Of a DNA stretch of 64,000 nt, positions 38,550 to 64,000 are shown piece by piece. The stretch covers positions 620,001 through 684,000 of the forward strand of contig NZ_FQYR01000003.1 of NCBI RefSeq assembly GCF_900141815.1, written 5' to 3'. Position numbers and translations under genes: made by a program. Position 1 is the stretch's first letter. Each line of letters opens with the position of its first letter. The notes under the pieces were generated by a model. That model was not told the DNA's origin. It saw only the letters and a list, made by a program, of their open reading frames with translations, and searched no databases. Source of the stretch: Rubritalea squalenifaciens DSM 18772. Its GTDB lineage: Bacteria > Verrucomicrobiota > Verrucomicrobiia > Verrucomicrobiales > Akkermansiaceae.

Positions 38550-41270
38550 CTATTCGATCTCAATCTTGTAAAACTGAGTAGGGGAGATGAGTTCACCCAA
38601 ATCGTAAATCGTTTCTGATAAGGTGGGGTGAGCTGGTATGTTCGACTGCACTGTGGTCCAACTTGCCTCGAGCAGAGTAGTTGATGATTTGATTATATAG
38701 GTAGCGCCTGGCTTGGATGGCCATGATAGGGTGAAGTGACCTGTCGATTGGTCGAGAATTGGGCGTGCCTTGAAAGTCGATTTGGCGCTCAGTGGATCCG
38801 TGCCTGTTTTAAACTCTGTCCCGTCATCGCTGCCGTCGCCGTCAGAGTCTATTAAATCGGGGTTGGTTTCACCTGCATCAACAAGGCCGTTGTTGTTAGG
38901 GTCTTCAGCGTTGTCGTCTAGTTGGTCATTATCTAAGTCTACACCTGGAAGGATAGGCATGAAGAAGGGGTCATCCGCATTGTTTGATTCAAAAGTAGGC
39001 CACTGTGCGCCTGCTTCATTAAGGCTTATAGCCATCTTTCTGGCCATTTCCATGACGCGTTCAGGCTCTGATGATGAGAGGTCAGTGGATTCTGAAATGT
39101 CATCAATAAGATTATATAGTTCGTAGTTGTTAGAAGCGTAATTGTAGATCAGCTTCCATTCATTCTCACGATATATGGTAAAGTAATCCGACCGGTGGTC
39201 GTGGGGGAAATGAATCAGTAGTTGCTGCGGCCTGTGAGTTCCTGAATCTCCTTTGAAGTACCCTGTTAGATCAAATCCATCGACATGGTTCTGGACAGAG
39301 GTTTTCGCAAGTGCAGCAAAGGTAGGGTAGAGGTCAAACACGGCAATCAAGTCGTCTTCTTTGGCTCCTAGAGGTATAGGTGTAACTTGCTGGTGTTCAT
39401 TTTCTGAATCAGGGTTGCACCATGCTACGATGAAAGGTTCGCGTATTCCACCCTCATATTTTGATCCTTTTTTGTGTCTCAGAGGAGCGTTTGAATTATT
39501 GACGTCACCCAGTGGTGCATCTCCACCATTGTCGGACATGAATACAATAATGGTGTCTTCGGCGACTCCCAGTTGCTCTAGTTTGGCCATGATGTCACCT
39601 AGTGACTTGTCCATTCCTTCGATCAAGGTTGCGTAGGCTAGTTCTCCGCCTGTGAGGGTGGGGTAATTCGCGGTAAAGCGGGAATCTGCCTGGAATGGAG
39701 CATGTACAGCATAGTGCGCCATGTAGGCAAAAAATGGAGTGCCGTCATTGACTGATTGCTCTATGGCCTTGTTCATTTCAAGAGTGAGGGCCTCAGAGAG
39801 GTGAGTACCTGTGTTGTGGTATTCATCTAGTCCGGGTACTGCATGGCTTCCTCCAGCACCGTAGGTGCCTGTATAGGAACCGGGGTGACCGATCTGGTTA
39901 CCAGCGATGTTGACATCAAAGCCTATATTGAGAGGTTCGCGAGCATAGGCTGATGAACCGAAGTGCGCTTTACCCGCGTGAATGGTCCGATAGCCCGCCG
40001 ATTGTAGGAGGCTGGGCAGAGTGAGGTAGGTGGATGACAAACCGCTTCTCTCCCAATTGCTGGGTGAATTGTGTGTAGTAGTTGTATTATTACCTGTTTC
40101 TCCACCACTTGGGCTGGTCCAGTTCGTGACGTGATGTCGTACTGAATTTTGGCCGGTTATCCAGCAGTTTCGAGTTGGTGTACAAACAGGCATCGCATAG
40201 GCATTGGTAAATTTCATGCCTCGGTCCGCCAATATCTCCATATTGGGGGTGCGGTATCTCTGGTTGAGTGCGGTGATGACTTCATTGCCACTGGAATCGT
40301 AGAGGAATGGTTCAGAGGTGTCCTGCCATCCCATATCATCAACCAAGAAGAAGATGATATTAGGTCTGGATGGGCCTGCCCCAACTCGGATATTTTGAGT
40401 AGAGGAGCCAGCGGCGTTCGTTGCTGTAAGGGTGTATGTCGTGGTTGTTGACGGTGTGATAACAGTGGTTCCTTCAATGTCTGTCGTAGATAGTACGATG
40501 TTTTCGTTTTGGTCTTTGATCGTGACGGAACTGGGTGCACCACCGCATTTCCAACTTACGGTTGCGTTGGTGTCACTGGGATCAAGATAATAGTCTGATG
40601 AGCTGAAGCTATCAATGAAGGGACGTTGAGGGTGGTTGTTAGAGATAATTTGTATCCCGCAAATAGCTGAACGGGTGTCGCCACTACCTGGGTTGCCGGT
40701 GAGAGTGAAGCTGGATCCGCTCAATCCGGAAAACGATGTCTGGTTGACTCCTTCCTGGATCGAACCTCCGAATGTACCATTGTCTTGGATCGTTTTGGTA
40801 ACTGCATCAATGGTGTAGTTCATCGTTCTAGAGTTACTATTGGAATCACCGAAGATAACCACTCTATATCCTTCGGTAGTGAAAGCCGTAGGCAGATTGT
40901 TAATCACCAGATTTTCTGTGCTGCGAATTCCGTACCAGCCCTCATACATGACGTGGTCATCTGAACCAGAGATCCATCCATTGCTGTTGGTGCCAGCATA
41001 GCCTGAAGTAACCGAGAGTGTGGCTCCTGAACTGGCGCCATCTCCCTTCAAGATGGATTCATTTGTAAAGCTGAGTCCCTGAGCATTCGTACCTGTGCTC
41101 TTAAAGTTATTCCAATATTCACTTCCATTCGTGCCAGCTGAGACAACGGATCCGTCGGGCCTAGTGTTGAAGCCTGACACAGTTGTATCATTTGCATGGA
41201 AGCTGATATTAATGATGTCTGCGTGTGCGATGATCTGCAGACAGAGAACAAGTGTGAGGCTGAGTTTCAT
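38550..41270 (-). CDS. Large multidomain secreted sulfatase
   Basis: This 906-residue protein has a signal peptide (MKLSLTLVLCLQIIAHA), a beta-rich N-terminal domain (about 20-215), an Ig-like domain (about 220-300, ending TYTLTATNAAGSS), the sulfatase domain (about 310-760) and a tail with DxDxDGxxD-type calcium-binding repeats (SDGDGSDDGTEFKTGTDP) and a final beta domain. The sulfatase opens with PNIIFFLVDDMGWQD and carries C363 in CTPTR, the residue expected to become formylglycine. It cleaves sulfate esters, probably on sulfated polysaccharides outside the cytoplasm. It is third in a unit with a sigma factor and FecR/LamG protein. The start is the ATG at 41268-41270. Confidence 0.9.
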   Translation of the reverse strand: MKLSLTLVLCLQIIAHADIINISFHANDTTVSGFNTRPDGSVVSAGTNGSEYWNNFKSTGTNAQGLSFTNESILKGDGASSGATLSVTSGYAGTNSNGWISGSDDHVMYEGWYGIRSTENLVINNLPTAFTTEGYRVVIFGDSNSNSRTMNYTIDAVTKTIQDNGTFGGSIQEGVNQTSFSGLSGSSFTLTGNPGSGDTRSAICGIQIISNNHPQRPFIDSFSSSDYYLDPSDTNATVSWKCGGAPSSVTIKDQNENIVLSTTDIEGTTVITPSTTTTYTLTATNAAGSSTQNIRVGAGPSRPNIIFFLVDDMGWQDTSEPFLYDSSGNEVITALNQRYRTPNMEILADRGMKFTNAYAMPVCTPTRNCWITGQNSVRHHVTNWTSPSGGETGNNTTTTHNSPSNWERSGLSSTYLTLPSLLQSAGYRTIHAGKAHFGSSAYAREPLNIGFDVNIAGNQIGHPGSYTGTYGAGGSHAVPGLDEYHNTGTHLSEALTLEMNKAIEQSVNDGTPFFAYMAHYAVHAPFQADSRFTANYPTLTGGELAYATLIEGMDKSLGDIMAKLEQLGVAEDTIIVFMSDNGGDAPLGDVNNSNAPLRHKKGSKYEGGIREPFIVAWCNPDSENEHQQVTPIPLGAKEDDLIAVFDLYPTFAALAKTSVQNHVDGFDLTGYFKGDSGTHRPQQLLIHFPHDHRSDYFTIYRENEWKLIYNYASNNYELYNLIDDISESTDLSSSEPERVMEMARKMAISLNEAGAQWPTFESNNADDPFFMPILPGVDLDNDQLDDNAEDPNNNGLVDAGETNPDLIDSDGDGSDDGTEFKTGTDPLSAKSTFKARPILDQSTGHFTLSWPSKPGATYIIKSSTTLLEASWTTVQSNIPAHPTLSETIYDLGELISPTQFYKIEIE

Positions 41271-41297
41271 GTCGTGTGTTGTGTATGCGTGAATGAT

Positions 41298-41318
41298 GTG
41301 ATTCCCATAAGGAATCAC
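41298..41318 (-). promoter_or_regulatory. Hairpin in the sulfatase leader
   Basis: GTGATTCC (41298-41305) and GGAATCAC (41311-41318) form a perfect 8-bp stem with a 5-nt loop, 28 bp before the sulfatase ATG and inside the 98-bp gap after the FecR/LamG gene. No T-tract follows. It may be an RNA-processing or stability element between genes, or a protein site. Confidence 0.45.
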
Positions 41319-41329
41319 GCATCCGCCAT

Positions 41330-41340
41330 AAACGTTAACA
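41330..41340 (-). promoter_or_regulatory. AAACGTTAACA motif, copy 1 (before sulfatase)
   Basis: An 11-base word identical to the one at 43471-43481 upstream of the sigma factor gene. It contains the palindromes AACGTT and GTTAAC. It is 60 bp before the sulfatase start. As the two copies flank genes of one unit, it may be part of a promoter recognised by the neighbouring sigma factor. The sequence following the two copies is only loosely alike. Confidence 0.35.
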
Positions 41341-41368
41341 CACAGAAGATAATACTCAAAAGATTGGC

Positions 41369-42898
41369 TTAGCGATTCATACAATCACGAACGGATTTTT
41401 GGTCTAGGACTCCTTCAAATATATAGAGTTCATCAATGGCTTGCAGGCTATTAGGGTAGGCATCGTGTTCACCACCACCTACTTGGAGTGGCTCTCTTTC
41501 AATGGTGTCGACCAATAGCTTTTTACCTGAAACCCTGCTGGCCATGCTCCATGGTATTTCTTGACCATCCACATAGATGTTTACTTCAGGCTCGCCTTGG
41601 TCATTAGAGCCGCCTGTGAAGGTGACTGCCAAATGGTGCCATTTGCCTGGGCTTAGGGCATAGTCACTGTTCAGCCATGTAGAACCGAGGGATACCCTGA
41701 TTTTCTTTTGATCTGGCGGACCGACAAGTCCAAGTTTCCACTTTTTATTGCCGGGTGCTGCTGGGGAACCCCAGAGAATAATTGGGGTAGGCGAAGTGAC
41801 TTCAGGAATATCAAGCCCCTTGCGCAGCTTTACCCACATCATCACGGTTCGTGGTCGATTACTGGGGATACCTTTCCATGTAGAGATCATGAAATCTCTC
41901 TGATGAGTGAATTGCACAGCTTCATTTTTAATGCCGTCTATCAATCGGGGATTTTCGTTTCTTTTGCTCAGATAATTCATTTGAGCAGAGGCGAGGATAC
42001 CTTCAGAGTGGAGGGTTTTTCCGCCAGTAAGGCTGTCTCGGTCAAAGGAGTAGTGAATGTACGGGATCTCCTCGGGTAATTCAGTCAAGTAGGCGTCTCC
42101 CGAATAATCGATCTTTTCGAAACCGCCCAGAGAGTTGCTGATCAGTGATTCCAGATCATGGAGTTCACGGGTTTGTCTGAGGCTTGATGCTCCTAGGTAG
42201 GATTCCACTCTGACCTTGCCAGAAATGACATGGACTTCATCCGCCTCTTCCTCAAGTGAGGTAACTCCGAAAACCGTACCCAAGTCAGTCACCTTCATTT
42301 CAGGCGTGTTGACGATGAAGCCAGGTTCTGTGGTTTCGACCCAAATCTTACCGTAACTCATGTTTACTGTATTTTCTGAGGTGAGGGTGAAGTCGGCAGG
42401 AGCTTGTACAATGGCACGGTGGTTTTTCGGAAACTTCACTTCTACGCAGCCTTGCTCAACGACTAACCGGTCGCCTGGCTGTATGCTGGAATTGGGAGAT
42501 CTTTGTGTCGAATCGTGATCCCCAGGAATCAATTGATAAATGGTTCCATGCGAGGAAGCTAATCCAAAATTCTGCTCACTCTCGACTGTGATGAAGTAGA
42601 AAATAGCGCCCAAGAGTAATGAGGCAGCAATACCGATCGCGGATGATAGGAGAAACGCCATTTTTCTCTGACGTCTGATGATTTGGTCGACAGAAGCAGG
42701 CTCCGTCTCAAAAGCGATGATTTTATTCGTGCTCTCGTGAGCGTCCGCCAAGAGAGTATCAATCTCAGCATAGCGCATATAAAGACTCCTTGCCTGTGGA
42801 TCTTCGAGGAGTGTGTTCACGAGAGCTTCCTCCTGCTCAGCTGGCAAAGTACCGTCTAAGTAGGACTGGATGTTCTTATGCAGTTCAGGACAGGTCAT
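41369..42898 (-). CDS. Membrane FecR-domain protein with C-terminal LamG domain
   Basis: A 509-residue protein. The N-terminal cytoplasmic segment (1-75), with LHKNIQSYLDGTLPAEQEEA, resembles the anti-sigma region of FecR-type proteins. A membrane helix lies at about 80-100 (LLSSAIGIAASLLLGAIFYF), a FecR beta-domain at about 125-235 (VKFPKNHRAIVQAPADFTL, VNTPEMKVTDLGTVFGV), and a LamG/concanavalin-like domain at about 290-505 (KWHHLAVTFTGGS, EVNIYVDGQEIPW). The LamG part could sense extracellular glycan and the N-terminus hold the sigma factor. The ATG overlaps the sigma gene stop (ATGA). Confidence 0.88.
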   Translation of the reverse strand: MTCPELHKNIQSYLDGTLPAEQEEALVNTLLEDPQARSLYMRYAEIDTLLADAHESTNKIIAFETEPASVDQIIRRQRKMAFLLSSAIGIAASLLLGAIFYFITVESEQNFGLASSHGTIYQLIPGDHDSTQRSPNSSIQPGDRLVVEQGCVEVKFPKNHRAIVQAPADFTLTSENTVNMSYGKIWVETTEPGFIVNTPEMKVTDLGTVFGVTSLEEEADEVHVISGKVRVESYLGASSLRQTRELHDLESLISNSLGGFEKIDYSGDAYLTELPEEIPYIHYSFDRDSLTGGKTLHSEGILASAQMNYLSKRNENPRLIDGIKNEAVQFTHQRDFMISTWKGIPSNRPRTVMMWVKLRKGLDIPEVTSPTPIILWGSPAAPGNKKWKLGLVGPPDQKKIRVSLGSTWLNSDYALSPGKWHHLAVTFTGGSNDQGEPEVNIYVDGQEIPWSMASRVSGKKLLVDTIEREPLQVGGGEHDAYPNSLQAIDELYIFEGVLDQKSVRDCMNR

Positions 42899-43443
42899 GG
42901 TTTGAAATCTTGAGGCATTCGGTTCTCGATGCACTTGCGAAGAGAGTTTCGAAGTCTGTGAAGAGTGACACGCAGTGAGGATTCGGAGCGTTTGGTTCGG
43001 GAGGAGTGTTGAGCCAGTGAATCGCCTTGTTCATACCGGGCTCGTACTATTTCTCGATTCTTCTTACTCAGTTTGGAAAGACAATGTTCTAGAGCTTTTG
43101 ATTTGAGCTCCAAGGAATCAGTTGAGCTGGAAGATTTCTCGATAAGGAGATCAGTTAACTCGGCTTTCTGCAGCAGTGTAGAACGTCGGTTCGTCTTCTG
43201 CATATGCTGTAAGACCTTGTTTCTGGCAATGGCAAAGGCCCACGCCTTAAAGTTTGTGCCCGGGATGAATTCAGAGCGTTTTTGCCAAGTGATCAAGTTG
43301 GTCTCTTGAAGGATGTCAGGGACATCTGCGCCGTAGCCGGGCATCAGGGATCGGATGAAGCATTTCAGGTCGAGCTGGTGCTTGGTCAGCTCCACGACAA
43401 AATGGTCATCTGATTGGCCAGAACTATGGTGTTTGAGTGCCAT
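42895..43443 (-). CDS. ECF-type sigma-70 factor, Rhodopirellula/Verrucomicrobium type
   Basis: A 182-residue sigma factor. Region 2 (about 25-90) includes DVPDILQETNLITWQKRSEF and FKAWAFAIARNKVLQHM; region 4 (about 120-175) has LSKKNREIVRARYEQGDSLAQH and a basic helix-turn-helix tail. It recruits RNA polymerase to a specific promoter set. The gene overlaps the FecR/LamG gene by 4 nt, the usual arrangement of a sigma factor and its membrane regulator. The start is the ATG at 43441-43443; a GTG lies one codon upstream. AAACGTTAACA stands 28 bp before it. Confidence 0.9.
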   Translation of the reverse strand: MALKHHSSGQSDDHFVVELTKHQLDLKCFIRSLMPGYGADVPDILQETNLITWQKRSEFIPGTNFKAWAFAIARNKVLQHMQKTNRRSTLLQKAELTDLLIEKSSSSTDSLELKSKALEHCLSKLSKKNREIVRARYEQGDSLAQHSSRTKRSESSLRVTLHRLRNSLRKCIENRMPQDFKP

Positions 43444-43470
43444 CACTACCAGTGTATCTCACAATTTTCG

Positions 43471-43481
43471 AAACGTTAACA
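43471..43481 (-). promoter_or_regulatory. AAACGTTAACA motif, copy 2 (before sigma factor)
   Basis: The second copy of the 11-base word, 28 bp before the sigma factor ATG, in the 135-bp gap shared with the divergent mscS-type gene. If it were a -35-like element read on the minus strand, the transcript would begin only a few bases before the ATG, which is tight but possible. Confidence 0.35.
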
Positions 43482-61258: not shown

Positions 61259-62689
61259 TTATTTGATGACACCCGTCTTCTCAATCTCAGATCTCTTGTC
61301 TCTGAGCTTTTTGAGTAGCCTCTCTACAATCTCAGGCTGTTCGCTAGCCCGATCAATACGCTCGCCAAGATCTTCTTCTACGTTGAAAAGAAGCGGCTGT
61401 TTCTCCGAGGCTTTGAAATTGTAATTATTACCAGTCTGAGAACCGATCCGGATATGTAGCTTCCAGGGCCCTACACGAATAGCGGACGGTTTGTTGTCAA
61501 AATAGCTGTAGATAAACTCAAAGTCGTCGACCTTCTGGGAGTCAGAGCCCAATAGATACGGGCTGATGTTTCTCCCATCTAGTTTCCGGTCATCTGGCAG
61601 TTTTGCTCCTGTGATAGTAAGTACGGTTGGCAGGACATCAAGTGTGCTGACCGGGGCTAGAAGGCGTTGAGGCTTGATGACTCCGGGCCAATAGAAGATT
61701 CCTGGAACTCTGTGACCGCCTTCCCAGGTAGAGCCTTTACCGTCTCTGAATGGCTGGGCATAACCTACATGAGTTCTGGCTTCGCCGTATTTGGGGTGAT
61801 TCTTGAACTTCAAATCACGGAAGAGAATCCATGGGCCATTATCTGAGGAGAATACGACTAAGGTGTTTTTGTCGATTCCTTCATCCTTGAGAGTTTGAAG
61901 AATGCGCCCAACGGAGTCGTCGACCTCAGCCATGACGTCGCCTAGAAGACCGCGCTTGGATTTACCTTTGAATTTTTCGCTGACGTATAAGCCCAGGTGC
62001 GGCTGGTTATGGGCTACATAGGCGAAGAATGGTTTGTCTTTGTTCTGTTTGATGAAGGATACTGCGGCATCGGTGTAGAGTCCGGTGAGGGAAGTGGATG
62101 CTTCATCATCGGACGGAAGGTTTTTAGCGACTTCACTGTAGCCCTTGACGGGCTTGTTTCCCGATGGATCAGATTTTAAGAGCTTGGCGTTATCGTAGTC
62201 GTGGGAGACATTGGTGCCAACCCAGGTGTCAAAGCCATGAGCGAGAGGGAGGGCTTCAGTACTCATTTGATTGCCCTTGTTTGGATTGCCTAGATGCCAC
62301 TTGCCAAACATGCCAGTCTTGTAGCCATTGGCTTTGAGTCCCTCAGCGATGGTGATCTCAGCACTTCGGAGGTGAGGCTTCGATCCAGGTCCAATTACCC
62401 AGGTTCCAAAGCCTGAGCGGCCAGGGTAGCGCCCTGTGAGTAGTGAGTAGCGGGAGGCACTGCAGGCGGGGGAACTTACGTAGAATTGGGTGCAGTTCAA
62501 TCCATTATGTGCCAGTCTGGAGATGTTCGGGGTCTCGATGACGGGGTTGCCATTGTAGGAAAAATCACCGTATCCGGAATCATCCAAATAGATGATGATG
62601 ACATTCGGCTTGTCCATGACTTCTCTGGCTTGTGCCAGAGGGAGCGAGCAAGCGCAGGCTAGACTGAATAGAGTGGGAAAAATTTTCAT
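61259..62689 (-). CDS. Secreted sulfatase (arylsulfatase family S1)
   Basis: A 476-residue exported enzyme: signal peptide about 1-22, then KPNVIIIYLDDSGYGDFSYN (metal-binding Asp pair). C76 lies in CSASR, the site converted to formylglycine, with Ala at the third place instead of the usual Pro. GKWHLGNPNKGNQ, VVFSSDNGPW and GGHRVPGIFYWPG segments are standard for the family. It removes sulfate from sulfated carbohydrates. The frame is open to 62821, but the ATG at 62687-62689 begins the signal peptide. The leader just before it is CA-rich rather than purine-rich. Confidence 0.92.
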   Translation of the reverse strand: MKIFPTLFSLACACSLPLAQAREVMDKPNVIIIYLDDSGYGDFSYNGNPVIETPNISRLAHNGLNCTQFYVSSPACSASRYSLLTGRYPGRSGFGTWVIGPGSKPHLRSAEITIAEGLKANGYKTGMFGKWHLGNPNKGNQMSTEALPLAHGFDTWVGTNVSHDYDNAKLLKSDPSGNKPVKGYSEVAKNLPSDDEASTSLTGLYTDAAVSFIKQNKDKPFFAYVAHNQPHLGLYVSEKFKGKSKRGLLGDVMAEVDDSVGRILQTLKDEGIDKNTLVVFSSDNGPWILFRDLKFKNHPKYGEARTHVGYAQPFRDGKGSTWEGGHRVPGIFYWPGVIKPQRLLAPVSTLDVLPTVLTITGAKLPDDRKLDGRNISPYLLGSDSQKVDDFEFIYSYFDNKPSAIRVGPWKLHIRIGSQTGNNYNFKASEKQPLLFNVEEDLGERIDRASEQPEIVERLLKKLRDKRSEIEKTGVIK

Positions 62690-62815
62690 GGTGTCTGTGT
62701 GAGTGTGAATCTGCATACGCAGGATGGGGGATGAGATTTTCATTTCAATAGAAGATCTCAAGAAGAGAAGAGATTTCATTTTACTGAGCCATGTGTGGAG
62801 TGTTTGATCCACGTA

Positions 62816-64000
62816 TGGCACGTGAGTACCAGCTTAAGAAGACCGTCACCGAAAACGCATCCGGTATCGACTATGCAGCTGAATTGAATGAACAGCAGTA
62901 TGCTGCGGTGTCTTCACGTCCTGGGGCCTCTCTGGTGATTGCTGGTGCAGGCAGTGGAAAGACACGGACTCTGACATACCGGGTGGCCTATCTGCTCGAC
63001 AGAGGGGTTGACCCGCGAAACATTCTTTTGCTGACCTTCACAAATAAGGCATCACGGGAAATGCTTGAGAGGGTACGTGAATTGATCTCTCAGGATATCT
63101 CGGATTTGTGGGGAGGTACCTTCCACTCTATTTGTAACCGTATTCTGAGGCGCCACGCTGACGAACTGGGCTTCACCCGAAGTTTTTCCATTCTAGATCG
63201 AGACGATCAGAAAGCCTTGCTCAATGCCGTCATAGCGGACTGCAAAATTGATACACAGAGTAGAAGGTTCCCGAAGCCCGATGTTCTGGCTTCAATCTTC
63301 AGCTTGATGGAAAATACCAAGGAGAGTCTGGAGGATATCCTGGAGGTTCGTTATCCATATTTTGAGGAATGGCTGGACGATATCAAGCGTGTACAGAAGG
63401 GCTATGTTCAGAAGAAGCTGGATGTAAACTCAATGGATTTTGATGATCTGCTGGTCCTTACCCTGAAGTTGCTCAAGAAGGATGAAGATCTCAGAGAGCT
63501 ATATCAGAAGAAGTTCAAACACGTATTGGTGGACGAGTATCAAGACACGAACATCATCCAATGTGAGCTGATTGATTTATTAGTAGCCAAGAATAAAAGC
63601 CTCATGGTTGTGGGTGATGACGCTCAGTCGATCTATTCCTGGCGTGGCGCGAATATGAAGAACATCCTTCGCTTCCAAGATCGATATCCGGGAGCCGCAG
63701 TCTACAAGATTGAGACCAACTACCGCAGTTGCCCTGAGATCCTAGAACTCTCCAATGCCGCCATTAAGGCGAACACGGAACAAATCCCCAAGGAACTACG
63801 TGCTCATAGGGTTGGGGGCAGTATGGTGCCGGCCCTGATTCCTCTGAACGACCCCCGCACCCAAGCGGAGTTCGTTACCCAGCGCATCCTAGAGTTGCGT
63901 GATGAAGGGGTGGAGCTTGAGGAGATGGCCATCCTGTACCGGGCTCATTATCAGAGCATGGAAATCCAGATGGAAATGACCACGCGAGACATCCCGTTCC
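62816..64000 (+). CDS. UvrD/PcrA-type DNA helicase, N-terminal part
   Basis: The first 395 codons of a superfamily 1A helicase, cut by the window end. It shows LNEQQYAAVSSRPGASLVIA leading into Walker A AGAGSGKT, motif Ia LLLTFTNKASREM, GTFHSICNRILR, motif II VDEYQDTN, motif III VVGDDAQSIYSWRGA and motif IV ETNYRSCPEIL. It unwinds DNA in repair or replication restart. The start is ATG 62816 (MAREYQLKK), divergent from the sulfatase across 126 bp. PcrA, UvrD and Rep cannot be told apart here. Confidence 0.93.

Follow-up and report, generated by a model that had tools for sequence, protein, structure and literature searches.

A sigma factor paired with a FecR-LamG membrane protein may control sulfatases and PEP-CTERM surface proteins from dispersed sites in Rubritalea squalenifaciens

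Does a sulfatase gene that follows a sigma factor and its putative membrane-bound partner belong to the same regulatory switch, and if so, is it all that the switch controls? This question is raised by a three-gene module in Rubritalea squalenifaciens DSM 18772. The window, the whole stretch of DNA that we analysed, comprises 64,000 nucleotides (nt) and corresponds to C3:620001-684000 of the source genome (G000; 4.32 Mb in 17 contigs). Other places in the genome are given below as contig and position. The module consists of the following genes:

42895..43443, minus strand: sigma gene of the extracytoplasmic function (ECF) type, TIGR02989 (Rhodopirellula/Verrucomicrobium family), 182 amino acids (aa); open reading frame (ORF) 42895-43446, with the ATG at 43443
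41369..42898, minus strand: FecR-LamG gene, encoding a membrane protein and putative anti-sigma factor, 509 aa; ORF 41369-42934 (521 aa)
38550..41270, minus strand: sulfatase gene, encoding a secreted S1-type sulfatase, 906 aa, without PEP-CTERM end

Our results lead us to think it somewhat probable that the sigma factor is autoregulated, that its regulon, with sulfatases and surface proteins, is dispersed, and that it is held by the FecR-LamG protein acting as an anti-sigma factor without a TonB receptor.

All three genes were found on the minus strand with the outer coordinates that an earlier note on this DNA had given. The overlap between the sigma gene and the membrane-protein gene, claimed in the same note, is real as well: it measures 4 nt if FecR-LamG starts at its probable ATG at 42898, and would measure 40 nt from the GTG at 42934. 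For the sulfatase we placed the start at the ATG at 41270 and not at the TTG at 41384 of its ORF. The sigma protein reaches 141.9 bits against the NCBIfam family TIGR02989 (cut-off 124.55; residues 15–173 on profile positions 2–158), and it is also matched by the Pfam domains Sigma70_r2 (1.3e-10) and r4_2 (8.9e-06).

One line of evidence for our reading is a promoter-like element. Comparing the region upstream of the sigma gene with the sequence that follows the FecR stop gives the 11-mer TGTTAACGTTT as the longest common word. It occurs four times in the 4.32 Mb genome: at both module sites, once before C2:525254-526015 and once before no called gene. The 10-mer GTTAACGTTT occurs six times, and at four of the six sites GATWC follows 12–13 nt downstream. 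The bipartite element GTTAACGTTT-N12/13-GATWC precedes the sigma gene, the sulfatase gene and two remote PEP-CTERM genes:

43454..43480, minus strand: predicted promoter of the sigma gene, GTTAACGTTT-N12-GATAC, with a gap of 7 nt to the GTG and 10 nt to the ATG
41312..41339, minus strand: predicted promoter of the sulfatase gene, GTTAACGTTT-N13-GATTC, first base 69 nt from the ATG
C2:526025-526052: element site with spacer 13, before the PEP-CTERM gene C2:525254-526015
C5:291180-291207: element site with spacer 13, first base 76 nt before the ATG of the PEP-CTERM gene C5:290430-291131

At all four full sites the first base of the element lies 34–76 nt from the start codon. An order-3 Markov model, for which 517 kb of the source genome served as training data, predicts 0.006 sites for spacers of 12–13 nt and 0.011 for spacers of 11–14 nt (the range searched), where four are observed. 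Given the six observed 10-mers, the expected number of GATWC pairings is about 0.05. A shorter pattern, GTTAAC-N15/18-GATWC, has five matches in the genome, four of which carry the full 10-mer. The search set out from two of the four sites. Looking for the 11-mer then gave the C2 site, which contributed to the definition of GATWC; the C5 site had not been seen when the pattern was chosen.

The predicted regulon extends over three further loci outside the module. Both PEP-CTERM targets encode proteins with a C-terminal PEP motif, a hydrophobic stretch and a basic tail, and the one at C2:525254-526015 also has a LamG match. A candidate fifth target is the sulfatase gene C2:590872-592302, where a site with two mismatches starts 75 nt upstream. 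The remote targets lie among apparently unrelated genes. The exception is a same-strand sulfatase gene (C5:287355-288914) at a distance of 1.5 kb past the C5 PEP-CTERM gene, from which other ORFs separate it.

What kind of sulfatase is it, and what ties it to the remote targets? Two of its domains are of interest:

39306..40364, minus strand: sulfatase catalytic domain PF00884, residues 303–655 (E 5.2e-41, 141.3 bits, over the gathering score)
40632..41219, minus strand: N-terminal malectin/CBM-like domain, residues 18–213, common to the PEP-CTERM protein C5:290430-291131

The sulfatase maturation motif is CxPxR. The window protein combines the catalytic domain with C-T-P-T-R at residues 363–367 and is a sulfatase of the S1 type on both counts. 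Its closest solved structure is 7oz9, deposited as N-acetylgalactosamine-6-sulfatase (E 5.6e-143); ranks two to four are three proteins deposited as sulfatases, and the fifth is 9fo1, an S1_16 kappa-carrageenan sulfatase (E 2.9e-58). The whole catalytic domain aligns to both 7oz9 and 9fo1. Unlike these two, the window sulfatase has the additional N-terminal domain and a C-terminal Asp-rich repeat region. It ends in ...TQFYKIEIE, and the genome scan found no PEP-CTERM end on it. A second sulfatase inside the window (61259-62821) is 25% identical to that of the module.

The N-terminal domain is 48% identical to the PEP-CTERM protein C5:290430-291131 over 185 aligned columns. No Pfam match over the cut-off covers residues 18–213, and our assignment of this segment to a malectin/carbohydrate-binding module (CBM)-like fold is a prediction from a structure model. 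The model, built from six sequences, has a predicted local distance difference test score (pLDDT) of 70.3 and is rich in beta strands. A structural aligner gave the best Z score, 10.7, to the C-terminal region of a Bacteroides beta-glucuronidase (root mean square deviation 3.7, 148 aligned), followed by human malectin (Z 9.4) and CBM35 modules (Z about 7.6); in Foldseek the best E value was 6e-04 and the template modelling (TM) scores were low. Five named loci contain relatives of the domain, three of them from Akkermansia, one from Kiritimatiellae and one in a Rubritalea record. A 304-aa protein elsewhere in the genome (C4:13299-14213; L052:8400-9314) has this domain and the region following it without a sulfatase domain or PEP-CTERM end; it is 36% identical to the sulfatase over 245 aa.

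Is the same gene order found elsewhere? In a genome from another family of the same order (G091), a sulfatase gene comes third, after a sigma gene and a gene of the FecR type; its product is 53% identical over its full length to the sulfatase of the module. After this sulfatase come a PEP-CTERM gene, a second sulfatase, a second sigma gene (identified by eye from its translation) with a FecR gene, and a third sulfatase. This locus has a different element, ACGTTT-N11/12-GACGT, which precedes the first sigma gene (by 37 nt), the PEP-CTERM gene (155 nt) and the second sigma gene (37 nt). The first two sites were spotted by eye and the third came from a scan; the 30 kb that it covered hold one more match, antisense within the second sigma gene. 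We regard this element as support for the shared-promoter reading and not as proof. Between the two loci FecR identity is only about 30%, which implies either rapid divergence of FecR or an exchange of partners by the sulfatases. Among the best 80 loci of sulfatase relatives in named genomes, profiles detected the N-terminal domain or a FecR relative in six; many of the remaining loci are Bacteroidota sulfatases by their record titles.

These data bear on a simple interpretation of the module: a compact unit, complete in itself, that senses and degrades. LamG would bind a sulfated glycan, and the adjacent sulfatase would be the sole real output. Adjacency, gene order, the sulfatase's own promoter-like site and the order in G091 would all fit such a unit. 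Exact sites upstream of two remote PEP-CTERM genes, of which one has a product that shares the sulfatase's own N-terminal domain, do not, and we consider the interpretation rather unlikely. The earlier note had described sigma factor, FecR-LamG and sulfatase as a compact sense-and-degrade system for sulfated glycans. The linkage of the three goes beyond adjacency, as the element before sigma and sulfatase and the G091 order indicate; the compactness is not supported, with a predicted regulon spread over three further loci.

How typical is a sulfatase in this position? The genome contains 37 TIGR02989 matches, 20 of them over the cut-off. We analysed the 25 that score 111 bits or more, and excluded the 12 weaker ones (under 90 bits) from all counts. 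In all 25 cases a same-strand second gene follows the sigma gene. Eighteen of these second genes have a FecR match (E<=0.001), which accounts for all 18 FecR matches of the genome, and 15 have a LamG_3 match (E<=0.001; compared by coordinate). The third gene is a same-strand PEP-CTERM gene in 18 of the 25 pairs, the sulfatase in the window pair and something else in the other six. The sulfatase module is therefore a minority variant of the sigma/FecR family. Sulfatases, with 58 matching segments in the genome, are not significantly enriched near the pairs either: 4 of the 25 have one within 5 kb, where chance would give 2.5, and 7 have one within 10 kb, where chance would give 4.6, so a sulfatase is not the rule for the family. 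The earlier view of the sulfatase as a defining part of the module is not supported by these counts, and the 18 PEP-CTERM neighbours also speak against the self-contained unit discussed above.

A similar picture emerges from a sample of 25 sigma/FecR pairs of relatives, picked for their likeness to the window FecR protein. The gene after the pair encodes a PEP-CTERM protein in 17 cases, a sulfatase with the shared N-terminal domain in one and something else in four; in two cases the gene lies on the opposite strand and in one it is missing. One of the four (in L143) has a basic C-terminal tail and may be a missed PEP-CTERM gene. A large group of parallel switches lies in another genome (G058:C2:205000-275000; loci L129-L132): within 70 kb, seven pairs of the sigma/FecR type, all of them with a PEP-CTERM gene next, are interleaved with about eight sulfatase ORFs.

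One could also argue that the system senses the cell's own surface or its exosortase cargo: a PEP-CTERM partner would hold or release FecR-LamG, and the sulfatase would edit the cell's own sulfated exopolymer instead of food. We take this rival seriously because PEP-CTERM proteins are the commonest partners of the family, among our own pairs as among those of relatives. There are 119 PEP-CTERM matches over the cut-off in the source genome. Exosortase is matched twice there, most strongly at C2:728641 and more weakly at C7:25363-26100. Haft et al. tie PEP-CTERM to exopolysaccharide (PMC1569441). On the other side, no PEP-CTERM gene adjoins the window module, and the solved structures nearest to the sulfatase were deposited under names of carbohydrate sulfatases. 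Among the relatives' pairs, a sulfatase is found in the next five same-strand ORFs in 11 of 25, a count for which no background was computed. Overall, own-surface sensing appears unlikely to us as the explanation of the window module.

How might the switch work? The FecR-LamG protein has the following parts:

42700..42898, minus strand: cytoplasmic N-terminal helical domain, putatively sigma-binding, with an approximate boundary (structure model and weak profile matches)
42584..42640, minus strand: predicted transmembrane segment (hydropathy; a low-confidence helix in the structure model)
42209..42385, minus strand: FecR domain PF04773, ORF residues 184–242 (E 2.4e-06, over the cut-off)
41390..41860, minus strand: Laminin_G_3 domain PF13385, ORF residues 359–515 (E 1.9e-10, over the cut-off)

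A hydropathy scan of the first 220 residues of the 521-aa ORF placed the strongest hydrophobic stretch at a start near residue 99. The FecR domain lies behind this predicted transmembrane segment and the gene adjoins that of an ECF sigma factor, as in FecI/FecR systems. The structure model (mc5e78cab9001) has a mean pLDDT of 46.7 and shows N-terminal helices, with block values of 63–85 for residues 1–50 and lower values beyond. Profiles match the anti-sigma-like N-terminus weakly: zf-HC2 has an E value of 0.22, below the cut-off, and the NCBIfam anti-sigma family LIMLP_03685 gives 3.2e-06, a sub-threshold match of 26.5 of 200 bits. No PDB sequence matches the protein at E<=0.1. For 49 pairs, distances between sigma factors correlate with distances between the N-termini of their FecR proteins (r 0.65; none of 2000 permutations as high). 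The correlation with the periplasmic part is lower (0.52), and common descent of the pairs contributes to both values.

In the FecR family the N-terminus holds the sigma factor and the periplasmic end receives the signal. Because of this family precedent, the same division of labor may be expected here. In the resting state, the membrane-anchored FecR-LamG protein would hold the sigma factor through its cytoplasmic N-terminus. A periplasmic signal, probably a glycan or a glycan-bearing protein met by LamG, would release it; this is the weakest step of the proposal. The freed sigma factor would then recognise GTTAACGTTT-N12/13-GATWC and switch on its own gene pair and, through a separate promoter, the adjacent sulfatase gene. 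Its dispersed targets would include the PEP-CTERM protein with the sulfatase-type N-terminal domain, the LamG-type PEP-CTERM protein and perhaps the second sulfatase at C2:590872-592302. The switch would thereby produce desulfating enzymes and exosortase-type surface proteins in a coordinated manner, all directed at one sulfated glycan. Anti-sigma binding by FecR-LamG, use of the promoters and the nature of the ligand are all inferred here.

The absence of a TonB receptor, which the earlier note had pointed out, holds for the window and for most of the family. The genome has seven Plug (PF07715) matches. The window contains none of them, and 24 of the 25 pairs have none within 10 kb, so a classical TonB transducer is not encoded nearby. 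The lone pair with a Plug match within 10 kb (C5:481321) has a second gene with no FecR or LamG match.

Several observations weigh against the dispersed regulon and its LamG sensor. First, the 10-mer by itself occurs six times and its reversed control three times, which is no clear excess, and GATWC is missing at two of the six GTTAACGTTT sites. Second, allowing up to two mismatches at spacer 13 adds four sites, one of them upstream of the sulfatase C2:590872-592302 and three inside ORFs, and the two-mismatch pattern is at chance level, with seven matches in all against nine for the reversed control. Since the control gives nine, the argument for the fifth target is one of position only. Third, word sharing between the sigma upstream region and the third-gene upstream region does not reach significance across the family: over all 25 pairs the mean for the own module is 9.24 against 8.85 (permutation p 0.10). 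The window pair's own score ranks fourth of 25, and one of the 24 foreign third-gene regions shares an equally long word with the window sigma. The case for the element therefore rests on its genome-wide rarity and its position. Fourth, a de novo search by expectation maximisation (EM) in the sigma upstream regions yielded no shared motif that convinced us: it had a best score of 53.6 from 400 starts, compared with 46.2–49.8 for eight shuffled sets given 120 starts each, an uneven control, and the sites were scattered. The EM models picked purine-rich or start-region words, as did those of a second run, which had no control. Fifth, the orthologous sulfatase of G091 lacks that genome's element in its 33-nt gap. 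Among the matches listed from 142 genomes (own included), the best match to the window FecR protein outside its own genome is only 36% identical, and the promoter can consequently not be checked in a close orthologous locus. Lastly, a glycan as the ligand of LamG is a guess from the fold and the predicted targets, and the LamG part of the structure model is too low in confidence for use.

One might attribute the whole arrangement to coincidence, with the sulfatase as a chance neighbour and the element as another regulator's site or a chance repeat. The abundance of sulfatases, their lack of enrichment near the pairs and the non-significant test of promoter sharing agree with this. It is hard to reconcile with four element sites where 0.006–0.05 are expected, all of them shortly before gene starts, with a gene order kept in another family and with the shared N-terminal domain. 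We consider coincidence very improbable. The link of the sulfatase to sigma and FecR-LamG is unlikely to be accidental because the G091 order, the repeated element, the shared N-terminal domain and the weaker site before a second sulfatase all point to it.

The pair at C9:50632 also stands out in word sharing, with a 15-mer (11-mer in the window). In this region (C9:38000-53000; L069), CATTTTTTTGTTAAG is common to the sigma gene and the region just before the first PEP-CTERM gene that follows, and TGTTAAGG recurs before the second. Two PEP-CTERM genes after the sigma gene C5:557906 (C5:545000-559800; L065) have TGTCACACTCAC upstream in common, which tandem duplication could explain. No universal motif was seen upstream of PEP-CTERM genes in the 115 regions scored, out of 117 (the 119 matches minus two with very short frames); GTTAACGTTT is present in 2 of the 115. 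The word AATTCC is found on the sense strand in 14 of these 115 regions and on the antisense strand in one, at scattered distances.

A broader proposal would make the roughly 25 parallel sigma/FecR(-LamG) switches per genome the missing regulators of PEP-CTERM genes outside the Proteobacteria; every switch would have a promoter word to itself and a small regulon at scattered loci. The switch in the window would then join glycan-binding PEP-CTERM proteins with sulfatases: a LamG sensor without an outer-membrane transducer would induce the binding of one glycan together with its desulfation. We put this forward as a tentative idea, possible and still rather doubtful. If it is true, a sigma switch paired with surface cargo and sulfatases turns the regulator question of Haft et al. 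into a few testable promoters. It would also mean that there is a FecR-type signalling route whose usual outer-membrane transducer is not encoded nearby, and a possible way for these bacteria to control surface display and digestion jointly, here with two sulfatases and two surface-sorted proteins.

Our literature search, with the main ECF classification outside its reach, returned no description of sigma/FecR pairs tied to PEP-CTERM genes in the available parts of the sources. A term search of PMC8857213 gave no sigma, FecR or PEP-CTERM, and term searches of PMC2754498 and PMC8999054 turned up no description of the link.

How does the window system compare with known ones? In the polysaccharide utilisation loci of Bacteroides, an ECF sigma/anti-sigma pair controls glycan-degrading enzymes, and the window module resembles them in this respect. 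Unlike these loci, it has no TonB/SusC-type receptor in the window and its predicted targets are dispersed; no SusC/SusD-type locus could be recognised, given that the window has no Plug match (SusD was not searched for). For the PEP-CTERM genes of Proteobacteria, Haft et al. (2006) proposed regulation by PrsK/PrsR/sigma-54, with a shared upstream site that averages 71 nt before the start, and they stated that further PEP-CTERM regulators and motifs await discovery, inside and outside the Proteobacteria (PMC1569441). The likeness lies in a proposed dedicated regulator of PEP-CTERM genes with a shared upstream site. The difference is that the window has an ECF sigma factor with a membrane partner, one of many parallel pairs, and no sigma-54 or two-component system. 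In Leptospira interrogans, the pair LIC12757/LIC12756 likewise couples a sigma factor with a FecR-like protein, whose N-terminal domain binds sigma and whose outer part, in its author's view, senses the signal; Leptospira belongs to another phylum, and the abstract mentions no LamG, sulfatase or PEP-CTERM partner (PMC13118517). A further comparison is with FecI/FecR/FecA of E. coli, whose FecR has been placed in AS243, with a discussion of its N-terminus (PMC7406223). Both systems have an ECF sigma gene adjoining that of a membrane-anchored FecR-domain protein with a cytoplasmic N-terminus, predicted in the case of the window protein. Unlike FecI/FecR/FecA, the window system carries LamG at the periplasmic end, is one of many parallel pairs per genome and belongs to a family in which 24 of the 25 pairs have no Plug match nearby. 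We propose, with moderate confidence, that the window system is a new variant of FecR-type sigma signalling.

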